This document shows positions 1 to 60,905 of a stretch of DNA of 64,000 nt, in pieces; the first letter of the stretch is position 1, and each line of letters begins with the position of its first letter. A program made the translations under genes and the position numbers. This DNA comes from Alteromonadales bacterium alter-6D02 (GTDB taxonomy: Bacteria > Pseudomonadota > Gammaproteobacteria > Enterobacterales > Psychrobiaceae), in contig PIZK01000001.1 in the NCBI GenBank assembly GCA_002835545.1, positions 62,001-126,000 of the forward strand, read 5' to 3'. The notes under the pieces are model-generated. The model was not told where the DNA came from. It saw only the letters and a program-made list of their open reading frames with translations, and did not search any database.

Positions 1-562
1 TGTTCTCTTGACAACAAGTAAATAAAATATCGGCGATTTCGATGGCGCACTTTTGGTCTAAATTGCCAGTAGGTTCATCGGCAAAAATAAACTTGGGCTG
101 AAAAACGAGGGCCCGTGCTATGGCCACGCGTTGTTGCTCACCACCACTTAACTCACTTGGTTTATGGTTAATGCGATCATTTAGTCCAACCTTGCTTAGC
201 CAAGCGGTTGCTTTTTTTATCGCATCTTTATCGCCCCGAAGTTTTAGCGGCAACGCAACATTGTTTAATGCGGTTAACTCGGGTAATAAATGAAATTGTT
301 GGAATATAAAACCAATATCACTTCTTAATTCACTTAATGCTTTGCTTTGACCCGCATTTACATAAACACCATGTCCCGTTGACGGTTGCTCTAATCCTGA
401 TATCAGCGTTAACAAGCTCGATTTTCCTGCTCCAGAAGGTCCAGTGATAGCATATGACTCACCTTGGTGAACGGTTAAATTGAGGTTGTTAAATAAAGTG
501 ACCTGGGTATCGTTGGTTTGAAAGGACTGGCTGGCGTTTTTTAACTCAATGTAACTGGGCAT
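1..562 (-). CDS. ABC transporter ATP-binding protein, LolD/YbbA-like (3' end cut by window edge)
   Basis: The gene reads leftwards off the window; about 187 N-terminal residues are visible. It starts at the ATG at 562 (MPSYIELKNASQSF). The order of motifs is that of an ABC ATPase: Walker A GPSGAGKS near residue 40, a Q-loop FIFQQFHLLPE, the signature LSGGEQQR near 145, and Walker B FIFADEPTGNLD. The HLLPELTALNNVALPL stretch and the ATPase-only architecture are typical of the LolD/MacB/YbbA branch, which energises lipoprotein release or periplasmic substrate handling together with an FtsX-type permease. That permease would lie outside the window. The family assignment is certain; the choice between YbbA and LolD cannot be made from the visible part. 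Confidence 0.9.
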   Translation of the reverse strand, partial: MPSYIELKNASQSFQTNDTQVTLFNNLNLTVHQGESYAITGPSGAGKSSLLTLISGLEQPSTGHGVYVNAGQSKALSELRSDIGFIFQQFHLLPELTALNNVALPLKLRGDKDAIKKATAWLSKVGLNDRINHKPSELSGGEQQRVAIARALVFQPKFIFADEPTGNLDQKCAIEIADILFTCCQEN

Positions 563-56562: not shown

Positions 56563-56653
56563 GGAGAGATGGCAGAGTGGTCGAATGCACCGGTCTTGAA
56601 AACCGGCATGGGTTAATAGCCCATCTAGGGTTCAAATCCCTATCTCTCCGCCA
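56563..56653 (+). tRNA. tRNA-Ser(UGA), copy 1
   Basis: 91 nt with encoded CCA. Acceptor GGAGAGA pairs TCTCTCC; anticodon loop CTTGAAA with TGA at 56597-56599; long variable arm ATGGG-TTAATAG-CCCAT; T-loop TTCAAAT. Class II shape proves Ser. Identical in sequence to copy 2 at 59960-60050. Confidence 0.98.
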
Positions 56654-57040
56654 CTAATTAAGAAAAGCCCGCTAACATGAAAATGTTAGCGGGCTTTTTG
56701 CTTTCAGGTTAAAAAAATGCGTTAATAGCGCAGTTAGGGAGATTCAAATTCCTACCTCTGCGCCACTAATTTAGAGAAGCCTGCTAACATGAAAATGTTA
56801 GCGGGCTTTTTGCTTTCAGGTTAAAAAAATGCGTTAATAGCGCAGTTAGGGAGATTCAAATCTCTATCTCTCTGCCACTTATTTAGAAAAGCCCGTGAAC
56901 ATGAAAATGTTAGTGGGCTTTTTGCTTTCAGGTTAAAAAAATGTGTTAATAGCGCAGTTAGGGAGATTCAAATTTCTATCTCTCTGCCACTAATTTAGAA
57001 AAGCCCGTTAACATGAAAGTGTTAACGGGCTTTTGGCTTT
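56654..57040 (+). repeat. Array of three tRNA-Ser 3'-fragments, each alternating with a terminator
   Basis: After the tRNA a terminator (stem AAGCCCGCTAACAT/ATGTTAGCGGGCTT, 56665-56696) is followed by a 47-base degenerate copy of the tRNA variable arm, T-arm and 3' acceptor strand ending CGCCA or TGCCA. The set repeats with a 112-bp step: fragments at 56719-56765, 56831-56877, 56943-56989; terminators near 56665, 56776, 56887 and 57000. Each fragment keeps the GTTAATAG variable loop and TTCAAAT. Confidence 0.9.
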
Positions 57041-57062
57041 TTAGGCTTAATTACCTTAAACA

Positions 57063-57100
57063 CATCCGTCGTTCCGGTAGTGTTTTGAGCCGGAATCTCC
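57063..57100 (-). repeat. Half copy of the dispersed hairpin repeat
   Basis: CATCCGTCGTTCCGG...CCGGAATCTCC equals one end plus the CCGG hairpin of the 110-bp/REP-like element in inverted orientation; the other half is missing. Confidence 0.65.
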
Positions 57101-57115
57101 TAACGAAACAAGATA

Positions 57116-57150
57116 AGCTCACTAACATGAAACATGTTAGTGAGATTTTT
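57116..57150. terminator. Terminator-like hairpin between the tRNA array and the HDOD gene
   Basis: Stem CTCACTAACATG/CATGTTAGTGAG with a 3-base loop, followed by five T on the plus strand. It resembles the array terminators (CTAACATGAAA), so it may be a further degenerate unit. Confidence 0.7.
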
Positions 57151-57174
57151 GCTTAAAAGCTGATATTAGAGTGT

Positions 57175-58020
57175 TTAGAACAATAGCGCGCTTGAAGGAT
57201 TGAGAATGGATAAAAGCTCCAAACGCTCAACATTGCAAATATCTTTCGCTTCATCTAAAACATCATCATTAAGTGAAAAGTCTTTTATCTCTTGGAAGTT
57301 AATCACTTTACTATAAGGCTCATCTTCAAACTGGTGATTTTTAAACACGGCTCGTTTAGCGATGTATAGTAATTTAGATTCTAATGTCGCATCTTCATGA
57401 GTTAAGTCATCTTGTAACGCGATTGGGTGGGATATAGATAAAGGAAAACCCCATAATTCAAGTAAGCGCGCACCGCATTCGCCAAAACTAAAACCAACAG
57501 TGAGTCGTTGTTTTTCCCAAGGTAAGATACTGATGTCATCGCAAGCGCATTGATGTACTAATTTGCTATCATGCTGTTGGATAGTGAGCTCACCGAGGTT
57601 ATGTAACAACCCTATAATGAATAAGCGCTCGGCATTTTTAAGGCCAAAACTTTGTCCTAAGTATTTAATCGTCAAGGCTGTATCTACGCTGGTAAACCAG
57701 AAATCATCGAGGTACTCATGGTCAACTTCAGGGCGGTTAAATGCTTTACTACTAAAAAAGGTGAGAACGAGACTATAAACTTCTTTGGTCCCTAAAATCA
57801 TTATCGCTTTAGTAATGGTATCAACTTTGCCCGATGTTTTATAAATCGGGCTATTGGCTAACTTTAAAATGGTTGCTGTTAAGGCGGGATCTAAAATGAT
57901 GACTTCACCGATTTCATCCATAGTCGAATCGTCACTTTCGAGTAATGATTTTATTCGAAAAAATGAGTCTTCTAAAACAAATACTTCATTGGCTGTTTTT
58001 GCATAATCTAATGCATTCAT
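57175..58020 (-). CDS. HDOD domain protein
   Basis: 281 residues, an HDOD domain over most of the length: LLESDDSTMDEIGEVIILDPALTATILKLANSP, in parts; ITKAIMILGTKEVYSLVLT; GLLHNLGELTI. The HD metal-binding residues of true HD phosphohydrolases are largely replaced (LHNLGE, no paired His-Asp), as in HDOD proteins, which act as signalling scaffolds in c-di-GMP and stress pathways. No other domain. Lies between the two tRNA-Ser arrays, divergent from the GGDEF fusion gene. Confidence 0.88.
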   Translation of the reverse strand: MNALDYAKTANEVFVLEDSFFRIKSLLESDDSTMDEIGEVIILDPALTATILKLANSPIYKTSGKVDTITKAIMILGTKEVYSLVLTFFSSKAFNRPEVDHEYLDDFWFTSVDTALTIKYLGQSFGLKNAERLFIIGLLHNLGELTIQQHDSKLVHQCACDDISILPWEKQRLTVGFSFGECGARLLELWGFPLSISHPIALQDDLTHEDATLESKLLYIAKRAVFKNHQFEDEPYSKVINFQEIKDFSLNDDVLDEAKDICNVERLELLSILNPSSALLF

Positions 58021-58219
58021 ATTTTTAACCCCATAATGAGCGGTTTTACTGATAGAAAATAAAAGTGAGATATTGCGATAAGTATAGACCTTATTAGATT
58101 AAAACTAGAGATAAAACAAATTTATCACTACATTTAATGAACTCAAGTCTAAAATATCACGTATTTCGAGTTATATAGGTTATACTAATTTCTGCACATG
58201 TGTTTTCTAAGGATGGGGT

Positions 58220-59854
58220 TTGTTGAAATATTTACATTGTTTGTTAGCTGGTCCTTTGCTGTTTTTACTGTGTTTAGTCAGTTATGTCCCTCCCGTTTTT
58301 GCTCTTAATATTGATAGTCTACCGAAAGAACTTGAAAAGATTAGATTCCAAGTACGTTGGCATCATCAGTATCAGTTTGCAGGTTACTACGCAGCCAAGC
58401 ATAAAGGTTTTTTTGCTGAAGCTGGTTTTGACGTCGAAATTATTGATGGCAGCCCCGAAAGACAACCTGTGACAGAAGTCCTTGCTGGACGCGCTGACTT
58501 TGCCGAAGGCAATAGTGAAGTGTTAATTAGTCGCTTACGTGGCGAGCCTATTATTGCCTTAGCAGCGATTTTTCAACAGTCACCATCTGTCCTTTTAACG
58601 CTTGCCGACTCCCATATAAATCATGCTTCTCAGCTAAAAGGTCATTCTGTGATGCTTGCTGGGAATGACGATGATGCTGATTTACTTGCTATGTTTAGCG
58701 TGGCTGGTTTATCTAAAAATGATATCAATGTTATCCCTAGTTCTTATGATATATCAGATTTAAGTAATGGTAGCGTAACAGCGTTTAATTCTTACTTAAG
58801 TAACGAGCCTTACTTTCTTGCTCTTCAAGACATTAAATACAACATAATAAAACCTCAAGATTATGGGATTAAGTTCTATAGCGATATTTTATTCACAACA
58901 CAGGAACAGGTGAATAAAGATCCCAAAAGAGTCGAGCGATTCAAACAAGCGGTTTTAAAAGGATGGCGTTATGCCATTCATAATTCTGAAGAGATAATTA
59001 ATATTATTTATACTCAATACAATGATGAAAAAACGCTAAACCATATGAGATATGAAGCATTAGCTATTAACGCACTAGTTCACTCTGAGATTTTACCTGT
59101 TGGCCATATTTTTGAACCTCGTATCGAGAAAATGGCTGATGTGTTTATCGAACAAGGAATGGTCAAAGATAAAACTCATTTAGATGGTTTTATTTTTGTC
59201 GCACCGCAAAAGTTTAGCCCAAAGTTATACTTTGGCTTTTTTGTCGCTGTGATTGTTACCTTACTATCGTTGCTTGTTGCGGGTTTATTTATAAAAATGA
59301 ACTTTAAACTTAAATTGGAAATCTCCCGTAGAAAAGATTACCAAGAAAAATTACAACATTTAGCCGATACTGATGGGTTAACCCAATTACTCAATCGCCG
59401 AGCTTTTATGCGCCAATATCAACAACATGAAGCATTGGCCCGCCGCTATAATCAGACTTTTTGTCTAGCTCTTTTCGATCTGGATTTATTTAAAAATATC
59501 AATGATCAATATGGCCATGATGCTGGAGACCGAGTCTTATTGGCTGTTGCTGCGATTTTAAAAGACTCAATACGTGACTCTGATGTTTGTGCTCGCTTTG
59601 GTGGGGAAGAATTCATATGGCTTTTCCCTAATACCAGTTTAGCTCAGGCATTAAACTGTGTTGAAAGAGTACGTTTAGCTTTTGAAAATGAAGGGGTGAC
59701 CTTAGATAATGAGCATGTGATTCAGTTTACCGCGTCTTTTGGTGTCATTCAGGGTGATAAAGAAGAACTTTGTGAGCTGCTCAACCATGTGGATCGTGCG
59801 TTATATAAAGCTAAAGCCGCAGGCCGAAATACCGTTCATGCAGAGGTCGCGTAA
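58220..59854 (+). CDS. NMT1/THI5-like substrate-binding protein fused to GGDEF diguanylate cyclase
   Basis: 544 residues from TTG 58220, AAGGA six bases upstream. Residues 1-28 form a signal/anchor (HCLLAGPLLFLLCLVSYVPP). Residues ~33-325 are a periplasmic binding domain of the NMT1/THI5 type (IRFQVRWHHQYQFAGYYAAK, EAGFDVEIIDGSPERQP, LAGRADFAEGNSEVLISRL), which in transporters binds pyrimidines, taurine or similar. A membrane helix (LYFGFFVAVIVTLLSLLVAG, about 339-358) leads to the GGDEF domain: TDGLTQLLNRRAF, LFDLDLFKNIND and RFGGEEF (GGEEF 461-465), with RDSD I-site at 452-455. A ligand-gated, product-inhibited cyclase. The binding domain acts as sensor since no ABC permease is near. Confidence 0.92.
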   Translation: MLKYLHCLLAGPLLFLLCLVSYVPPVFALNIDSLPKELEKIRFQVRWHHQYQFAGYYAAKHKGFFAEAGFDVEIIDGSPERQPVTEVLAGRADFAEGNSEVLISRLRGEPIIALAAIFQQSPSVLLTLADSHINHASQLKGHSVMLAGNDDDADLLAMFSVAGLSKNDINVIPSSYDISDLSNGSVTAFNSYLSNEPYFLALQDIKYNIIKPQDYGIKFYSDILFTTQEQVNKDPKRVERFKQAVLKGWRYAIHNSEEIINIIYTQYNDEKTLNHMRYEALAINALVHSEILPVGHIFEPRIEKMADVFIEQGMVKDKTHLDGFIFVAPQKFSPKLYFGFFVAVIVTLLSLLVAGLFIKMNFKLKLEISRRKDYQEKLQHLADTDGLTQLLNRRAFMRQYQQHEALARRYNQTFCLALFDLDLFKNINDQYGHDAGDRVLLAVAAILKDSIRDSDVCARFGGEEFIWLFPNTSLAQALNCVERVRLAFENEGVTLDNEHVIQFTASFGVIQGDKEELCELLNHVDRALYKAKAAGRNTVHAEVA

Positions 59855-59914
59855 TTATATATTTTTCATTTGTGTGTTTTATCGGCAGTCGTAACTAATA
59901 AGCCATCTTATTGC

Positions 59915-59943
59915 TTTACAAAACGAAATAACATCATTAATAT
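59915..59943 (+). promoter_or_regulatory. Promoter of tRNA-Ser copy 2
   Basis: TTTACA (59915-59920) and TAATAT (59938-59943) are separated by 17 bp; the tRNA begins 17 bp after the -10 box. Confidence 0.65.
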
Positions 59944-59959
59944 GCGCTTCACCAGCTGC

Positions 59960-60050
59960 GGAGAGATGGCAGAGTGGTCGAATGCACCGGTCTTGAAAAC
60001 CGGCATGGGTTAATAGCCCATCTAGGGTTCAAATCCCTATCTCTCCGCCA
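59960..60050 (+). tRNA. tRNA-Ser(UGA), copy 2
   Basis: 91 nt, identical to copy 1 base for base including the encoded CCA. Anticodon TGA at 59994-59996. Followed by its own terminator/3'-fragment array. Its 5' flank is unlike that of copy 1, so the two are separately promoted. Confidence 0.98.
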
Positions 60051-60740
60051 CTTATTCTGTAAAAAGGCTATCTAATTATTTTAGATAGCCTTTTTCGTTT
60101 CAGTCTAAAAAGATTGGGTTAATAGCTCAGTTAGGGAGATTCAAATCCTTATCTCTCCGCCACTTATTCTGCAAAAAAGGTTATCTAATTATTTAGGTAG
60201 CCTTTTTTCGTTTCAGTCTAAAAAGATTGGGTTAATAGCTCAGTTAGGGAGATTCAAATCCTTATCTCTTCGCCACTTATTCTGCAAAAAAGGTTATCTA
60301 ATTATTTAGGTAGCCTTTTTTCGTTTCAGTCTAAAAAACATTGGGTTAATAGCTTAGTTAGGGAGATTCAAATCCCTATCTCTTCGCCACTAATTTAGAA
60401 AAGCCCGTTAACATGAAAGTGTTGGCGGGCTTTTTGCTGTCAGGTACAAAACATTGGGTTAATAGCTCAGTTAGGGAGATTCAAATCCTTATCTCTCCGC
60501 CACTTATTCAGTAAAAAAGGTTATCTAATTATTTAGGTAGCCTTTTTTCGTTTCAGTCTAAAAAGATTGGGTTAATAGCTCAGTTAGGGAGATTCAAATC
60601 CTTATCTCTCCGCCACTAATTCTGTAAAAAGGCTATCTAATTATTTTAGATAGCCTTTTTTCGTTTCAGTCTAAAAAGATTGGGTTAATAGCTCAGTTAG
60701 GGAGATTCAAATCCTTATCTCTGCGCCACTTATTAAAAGA
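60051..60740 (+). repeat. Array of six tRNA-Ser 3'-fragments alternating with terminators
   Basis: Fragments of 47 bases at 60116-60162, 60229-60275, 60343-60389, 60456-60502, 60569-60615 and 60682-60728, in steps of 113-114 bp. Each starts GGGTTAATAGC and ends CGCCA. Between them lie hairpins with T runs, mostly of the GGCTATCTAATT/TTAGATAGCC or GGTTATCTAATT/TTAGGTAGCC type. The one after the third fragment (60396-60435) is of the CCCGTTAACATGAAA type otherwise found only in array 1, a sign of exchange between the two arrays. Confidence 0.92.
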
Positions 60741-60802
60741 AAGCGTTACTTATTAATTTAAGTGGTGCTTTTTTTATTTTTAAGCCGTCGATATCATAAA
60801 TG

Positions 60803-60905
60803 CATCCGTCATTCCGGCAGTCTTTTAGCCGGAATCTCGGGTTTGTTACCGATGGTGATTACTCTACGACAAGATCCTGAATAAAATATTTTTAGGACGA
60901 CGATG
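60803..60905 (-). repeat. Inverted single copy of the dispersed hairpin repeat
   Basis: CATCCGTCATTCCGGC... to ...TTAGGACGACGATG, the reverse complement of the element in the 110-bp array, with intact CCGGCAGTCTTTTAGCCGG and TCCTGAATAAAATATTTTTAGGA hairpin parts. Its CATC...GATG ends suggest the true element borders. It sits 20 bp after the barrel-protein stop. Confidence 0.8.

Follow-up and report, generated by a model that had tools for sequence, protein, structure and literature searches.

tRNA-linked repeats (TLRs) have been known in Escherichia coli since 1978. A 2021 paper lists 22 members at ten loci, including rtT of tyrT and rrA, rrB and rrF of the rrn operons, with 1-5 repeats per locus and 18-19 bp of 3' identity, and most of them were still without known function (PMC8144298). 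The rrA, rrB and rrF repeats lie between two terminators; their RNAs arise by read-through, are processed, and bind both Hfq and CsrA (PMC8144298). The rtT repeat shows a 175 bp variable-number change between Salmonella serovars (PMC2658671), and displaced 3' fragments of tRNA genes are found at genomic islands of the Islander type (PMC4383910). Here we analyzed a stretch of 64,000 nucleotides from Alteromonadales bacterium alter-6D02 (contig PIZK01000001.1, positions 62,001 to 126,000; hereafter the window), in which two tRNA-Ser(UGA) genes of identical sequence are followed by three and six fragments derived from the tRNA 3' end, with a Rho-independent terminator after each. With moderate confidence, we interpret these arrays as recombination-amplified tRNA-Ser 3'-end/terminator cassettes of the TLR kind, which would serve passively as redundant terminators and spare attachment sites.

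Layout of the tRNA-Ser arrays in the window

The two genes, called tRNA-Ser(TGA) by ARAGORN, are located at 56563-56653 and 59960-60050. When the 64 kb were scanned with the 3'-terminal 25 nt of the tRNA at ≤8 mismatches, 11 sites were found on the + strand, namely the two tRNAs and 3 + 6 fragments downstream of genes 1 and 2, and a single weak site was found on the - strand; shuffled windows gave 0.0 sites at ≤4 mismatches and 0.15 at ≤8. The arrays are real, and the initial annotation, which had described 3 and 6 fragments alternating with Rho-independent terminators at 112-114 bp steps, was confirmed in both respects: the units recur every 112 bp in array 1 (112/112/112) and every 112-114 bp in array 2, and every fragment is followed by an intact terminator hairpin of -15 to -26 kcal/mol with a T run. 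The order within each unit is linker, 48-nt fragment with CCA end, AU-rich trailer, stable hairpin and T run. The features are listed below.

56563-56653, + strand: tRNA-Ser(UGA) gene 1, CCA encoded (ARAGORN; RF00005, 61.1 bits)
56661-56698, + strand: terminator of tRNA 1, type A
56718-56765, + strand: array 1 unit 1, tRNA 3'-end fragment
56773-56810, + strand: terminator of array 1 unit 1
56830-56877, + strand: array 1 unit 2, fragment
56885-56922, + strand: terminator of array 1 unit 2
56942-56989, + strand: array 1 unit 3, fragment
56997-57034, + strand: terminator of array 1 unit 3
59960-60050, + strand: tRNA-Ser(UGA) gene 2, identical to gene 1 (ARAGORN; RF00005)
60061-60095, + strand: terminator of tRNA 2, type B
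60115-60162, + strand: array 2 unit 1, fragment
60172-60208, + strand: terminator of array 2 unit 1
60228-60275, + strand: array 2 unit 2, fragment
60285-60321, + strand: terminator of array 2 unit 2
60342-60389, + strand: array 2 unit 3, fragment
60397-60434, + strand: terminator of array 2 unit 3, type A, within a block of 77-79 bp that recurs unchanged at another tRNA-Ser locus
60455-60502, + strand: array 2 unit 4, fragment
60513-60548, + strand: terminator of array 2 unit 4
60568-60615, + strand: array 2 unit 5, fragment
60625-60662, + strand: terminator of array 2 unit 5
60681-60728, + strand: array 2 unit 6, fragment
60736-60775, + strand: terminator of array 2 unit 6, type C, recurring in the array at the start of contig C1 of the same genome

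The feature had first been ended at 60740, which is too early since the last terminator reaches about 60775. Its fragments do originate from the tRNA 3' end, but the proposal of simple copies of the tRNA's final 47 bases does not hold: in every unit AGA is inserted into the T-arm (TAGGGAGATTCAAAT versus TAGGGTTCAAAT), with one to several substitutions besides, and in the window 16-18 of the last 19 nt are identical to the tRNA. The CCA end and the motifs TTAATAG and TTCAAAT, described as kept throughout, are indeed present in 9/9 window fragments but not genome-wide, where three units outside the window have a TCA end instead of CCA.

With a hairpin and T run after each unit, the suggestion that the arrays form serial terminators is structurally correct, and each cassette would be an extra terminator behind the strong tRNA promoter. 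No promoter-like site was matched on the + strand inside either array, so transcription would enter the units only where it reads through the terminators ahead of them, which in turn would make a dosage-dependent function of the fragment RNA unlikely. An Rfam search of the arrays returned tRNA alone above threshold.

Other arrays and the comparison with tRNA-linked repeats

The window's own genome (G000, with contigs C1, C2, C14, C19 and C35) contains four tRNA-Ser(UGA) genes, and units are located behind all four: the two window loci, C2:215527 and C35:19024. The array at C35:19024 reaches the contig end, 119 exact bases are common to C35 and the start of C1, and the array very likely continues there; array lengths are to be read knowing that arrays collapse or break at contig ends. 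Unit C1c, outside the window, is the sole Ser unit with 19/19 identity to the tRNA 3' end. Among the other tRNA loci of G000 (24 regions; 82 tRNA genes including the Ser loci), repeats were present only at a Phe/Thr tRNA operon, behind which four units ending in the tRNA-Thr 3' end were found (L062:984-1564, G000:C14:125479-126063). Three of the four are exact over 22 nt, each has the same type of terminator, and the steps are 126-200 bp. This tRNA-Thr array is broken up by dispersed palindromic repeats, reaches the end of contig C14 and is probably continued on C19.

Both the Ser and the Thr arrays share the location of TLRs, that is, repeats directly behind a tRNA gene with a 3' part copying the gene end. 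The hallmark of 18-19 bp identity is likewise present in the three exact tRNA-Thr units, a stricter match than in the window arrays, whose Ser units fall short of identity over the last 18-19 bp. The window copies are also longer and less exact (about 47 nt), a terminator follows every one of them, unlike in TLRs, and their numbers of 3 and 6 compare with 1-5 per locus in E. coli. Judged by sequence, the window Ser arrays are TLR-like and not strict TLRs. The resemblance to the E. coli tyrT/rtT repeats had been pointed out aptly in the initial annotation, although, as regards its placing in another phylum branch, this organism is also a gammaproteobacterium.

The rtT family of Rfam gave no match in the window between 50 and 64 kb at E values up to 1, and none in L045, L049, L062, L096 and L100 at the gathering threshold. 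The E. coli rtT body (L113:1632-1941) aligns to positions 18-67 of tRNA-Tyr, with 2/1000 shuffles as good, a hint that rtT, too, could be a modified 3' part of a tRNA in which the T-arm has gained an insertion. A further likeness is to the E. coli 3'ETS-leuZ trailer, a sponge RNA from the region behind a tRNA gene; the trailer is not described as a tRNA-end repeat (cited in PMC8144298), and no sponge target is known for the window units. Relative to the openly licensed papers found, what is new is the genus, the terminator in each unit, unit numbers of up to six and the connection with tRNA-targeting integrases, and that literature gave no direct precedent for tandem tRNA 3' ends or for attachment sites acting as decoys.

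Exchange among loci, turnover and covariation

A block of 77-79 bp, comprising an array-1 type terminator and the start of the next fragment, is identical between array 2 and the C35/C1 locus. The array 2 terminators are of type B except those of unit 3 (type A) and unit 6 (type C), and the type C terminator with its flank recurs at the start of C1. In array 1 the linkers are identical, and the fragments and terminators are 88-96% identical. The array-1 type terminator of array 2 unit 3 makes the arrays mosaics, and this mosaic pattern shows recombination among loci, while the copy number would result from unequal crossing-over. In the favoured explanation, the cassette would consist of a degenerate tRNA-Ser 3' end and its Rho-independent terminator, would have been multiplied via unequal recombination, and would have been homogenised as the four tRNA-Ser(UGA) loci exchanged sequence with one another and with the tRNA gene. 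The identical blocks make exchange between loci visible, and its exact route is what we infer.

The genus was taken as Psychrobium (Gammaproteobacteria), and most of the relatives compared are fragmented metagenome-assembled genomes. The initial annotation had suggested looking for such repeats in related genomes, and units were indeed found behind tRNA-Ser(UGA) in G002 (1-2 per locus), G008 (2), G005 (1 at three loci) and, weakly, G007, but none in G006, the least fragmented relative, in which three tRNA-Ser(UGA) loci have one terminator each and zero units. G004 has a single tRNA-Ser 3' fragment without the variable arm. At the orthologous yccA-like/tRNA-Ser locus the unit count is 3 in the window, 1 in G005, 0 in G006 and 0 in G002. 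The tRNA-Thr array was not found in genus mates, and the tRNA-Ser and Phe/Thr clusters inspected outside the genus, in other families of the order, consisted of full genes with no arrays. The absence of units from G006 and the differing counts between species thus indicate that the units turn over across the genus. Moreover, the variable loop of the units matches the resident tRNA, being TTAATAG in the window genome, TTTATAG in G005 and TTTAT in G002, G008 and G007, and this tracking of each species' tRNA suggests concerted evolution, with the units copied from the parent gene.

Such exchange is also what one would expect if the units were decayed tandem duplicates of tRNA-Ser and its terminator, whose 5' halves were lost and whose 3' ends persist via gene conversion with no role. 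The kept variable arm, the alignment of Thr units 1 and 4 to the anticodon stem-loop (8-11/1000 shuffles reach the score) and the alignment of the rtT body to tRNA-Tyr all agree with this explanation, which we consider possible but unlikely, because the Ser linkers have no similarity to the tRNA 5' half, and several lineages have in common the boundary, the type of insertion (before the T-arm or within it) and intact terminators.

The fragments had further been described as not simply decaying, on the ground that the variable-arm stem stays paired while both sides change, and a covariation test had been proposed. Among 14 units of G000 (11 distinct rows) the stem was indeed 97.7% paired, but only 1/4 pairs changed on both sides, with the states GU in 6 distinct rows, CG in 3, UG in 1 and a GG mismatch in 1 (representing two units). 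The CG form is confined to array 1 and C2 and is probably one event, because these loci share blocks of 42-47 bp. The observed stem score was reached by 11/500 shuffles, and relatedness alone can produce such scores. The other helices were no better than shuffles: in the T-arm the standard-pair changes were C-to-U on one side only, and pairing was weakened to G-U or disrupted in some units; the acceptor-like helix GGGAGAT/ATCTCTC and the variable-arm/acceptor helix GCGCAG/CTGCGC showed covariation not above shuffles; and the terminator hairpins were preserved with one double change, which did not exceed shuffles at this low divergence. Several independent compensatory pairs, as a structured RNA should show, were not found, there being one pair only. 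With one doubly changed pair and its GG mismatch form in the same genome, the argument that the fragments are not simply decaying was overstated. The preserved loop and stem would reflect copying from the parent gene and other loci rather than selection on the fragment RNA.

These results bear directly on whether the units are small-RNA genes, as in E. coli, a role also put forward in the initial annotation. The read-through products rrA, rrB and rrF with their Hfq and CsrA binding provide a model, and two weak hairpins and an AGGGA motif are present in the window units, but this motif did not appear in the Thr units or in those of G002 and G008, no + strand promoter was matched within the arrays, a series of up to six strong terminators would starve later units, and the units are missing in G006 and vary in number between species. 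Together with the single doubly changed pair and helices equal to shuffles, this leaves a small-RNA role without promoter or structural support, and we regard it as doubtful.

Integrase elements at tRNA-Ser 3' ends and repeat units

According to the favoured explanation of amplified cassettes, the 3' end of the host tRNA gene would be the attachment site of tyrosine-integrase elements in the genus, and each cassette would retain the T-arm-to-CCA core, usable by an integrase instead of the tRNA gene. Tyrosine integrases were searched in six genus genomes, and the integrase family identified was searched in ten genomes. In G002, matches were on the same contigs as tRNA-Ser loci. In three contigs (G002 C192, G003 C99 and G009 C62) the CCA of tRNA-Ser is followed immediately by the left end of an element, with its own terminator and then an integrase gene, all of one family; the integrase is decayed in G003 C99 and in G009 C62, where an unrelated insertion precedes it. 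In G002 C69, the same left end adjoins a repeat unit downstream of tRNA-Ser and not the tRNA itself, and in G002 C199 the second repeat unit is followed by a decayed left end that retains a remnant of the integrase. Use of a unit core by the integrase is thus seen at two junctions in the relative G002 and not in the window species. All integrase copies with an identifiable site in the ten genomes were behind a tRNA-Ser or a repeat unit, and one further weak partial match to this integrase is present in G003 C189.

The element in G002 C83 ends 13.4 kb past the integrase, with a repeat-type 3' end, the repeat terminator and then another unit. This repeat-type end favours C83 being the continuation of C69 rather than of C192. 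The junction in C69 is not a misassembled copy of that in C192, since several positions distinguish the two sequences. In the approximately 13.4 kb element formed by L210 (G002:C83:20500-35489) and L211 (G002:C69), the starts of cargo open reading frames (ORFs) were read as an ABC transporter and isoprenoid-type enzymes.

Several observations weigh against the attachment-site part of this explanation. C83 shares one and the same 77 bp overlap with the integrase end of C69 and with that of C192, which makes the contig join ambiguous, and G002 is a draft metagenome-assembled genome. No integrase of this family was found in G000 in the ten-genome search, so that attachment-site use rests on a relative and not on the window species. 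In addition, the right-end fragments of the elements have no variable arm and the array units carry one, and the units are therefore not simply right-end scars of the elements seen. Compared with scars of the right attachment site (attR), the window units are alike in covering the attachment core from T-arm to CCA with a terminator behind, and in joining a displaced 3' fragment to its original terminator, as in contigs of IMG/VR and in the G002 and G004 fragments; they differ in being tandem, in having the variable arm and in having no element between them, and neither element DNA upstream nor an integrase between fragment and tRNA was found in the window.

In IMG/VR, the 23-nt core of another tRNA-Ser occurs in viral contigs, and many of the occurrences have arbitrary upstream sequence and, behind the core, a terminator-like hairpin plus T run. 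By ARAGORN these occurrences comprise 46 fragments, 31 full tRNAs and 7 at contig edges, the 46 including some tRNAs that ARAGORN missed. In L138 and L184, a distance of about 9.2 and 9.7 kb separates a full tRNA-Ser(CGA) from a 23-nt 3' fragment, a terminator-like hairpin follows both, and the contigs are probably small integrative elements of another host. The IMG/VR contigs lend independent support to the view that a fragment with its terminator is a usual product of integration. A second genus with species-specific arrays at two tRNAs and integrase junctions ties TLRs to mobile-element integration and recombination, and this link offers a testable account of TLR origin and rapid turnover.

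That the cassette arrays are kept as spare sites diverting tRNA-targeting elements from the essential tRNA gene is improbable in our view; if true, TLRs of the E. coli type would gain an origin and a role in conflict with mobile elements. As for selected decoy attachment sites, in which extra 3' ends are kept since integrases hitting them spare the essential tRNA-Ser, the two repeat-integrase junctions in G002 and the sites of the identifiable integrase copies are in agreement, but the benefit may be small, given that an integrating element restores the 3' end of the tRNA, and several species have few or no units; we consider such selection very unlikely. The suggestion of decoys for tRNA maturation enzymes (RNase E/P/T, CCA enzymes) is hardly credible despite the CCA and AU-rich trailer in all window units, given the three TCA ends in G000, the G-U or broken T-arm pairing in some units, transcription by read-through only, and no support from promoters or conservation, with one genus mate lacking units.

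Near position 1430 of L114 (G004:C105), a tRNA-Ser 3' fragment without variable arm is located about 20 kb from a tRNA-Ser on the same contig; the ORFs between them were read as type I secretion and RTX-like, and an upstream motif, AAAGG(A/G)TAG, is common to this fragment and other element right ends. Immediately behind both window arrays, at 57066-57103 and 60790-60840, there are dispersed palindromic repeats (GTCATTCCGG...GCCGGAATCT), many related copies of which occur elsewhere in the genome. Between the two tRNA-Ser loci, 58220-59854 encodes an NMT1/THI5-like periplasmic binding domain fused to a GGDEF domain, and this gene adjoins an HDOD protein gene on the opposite strand.

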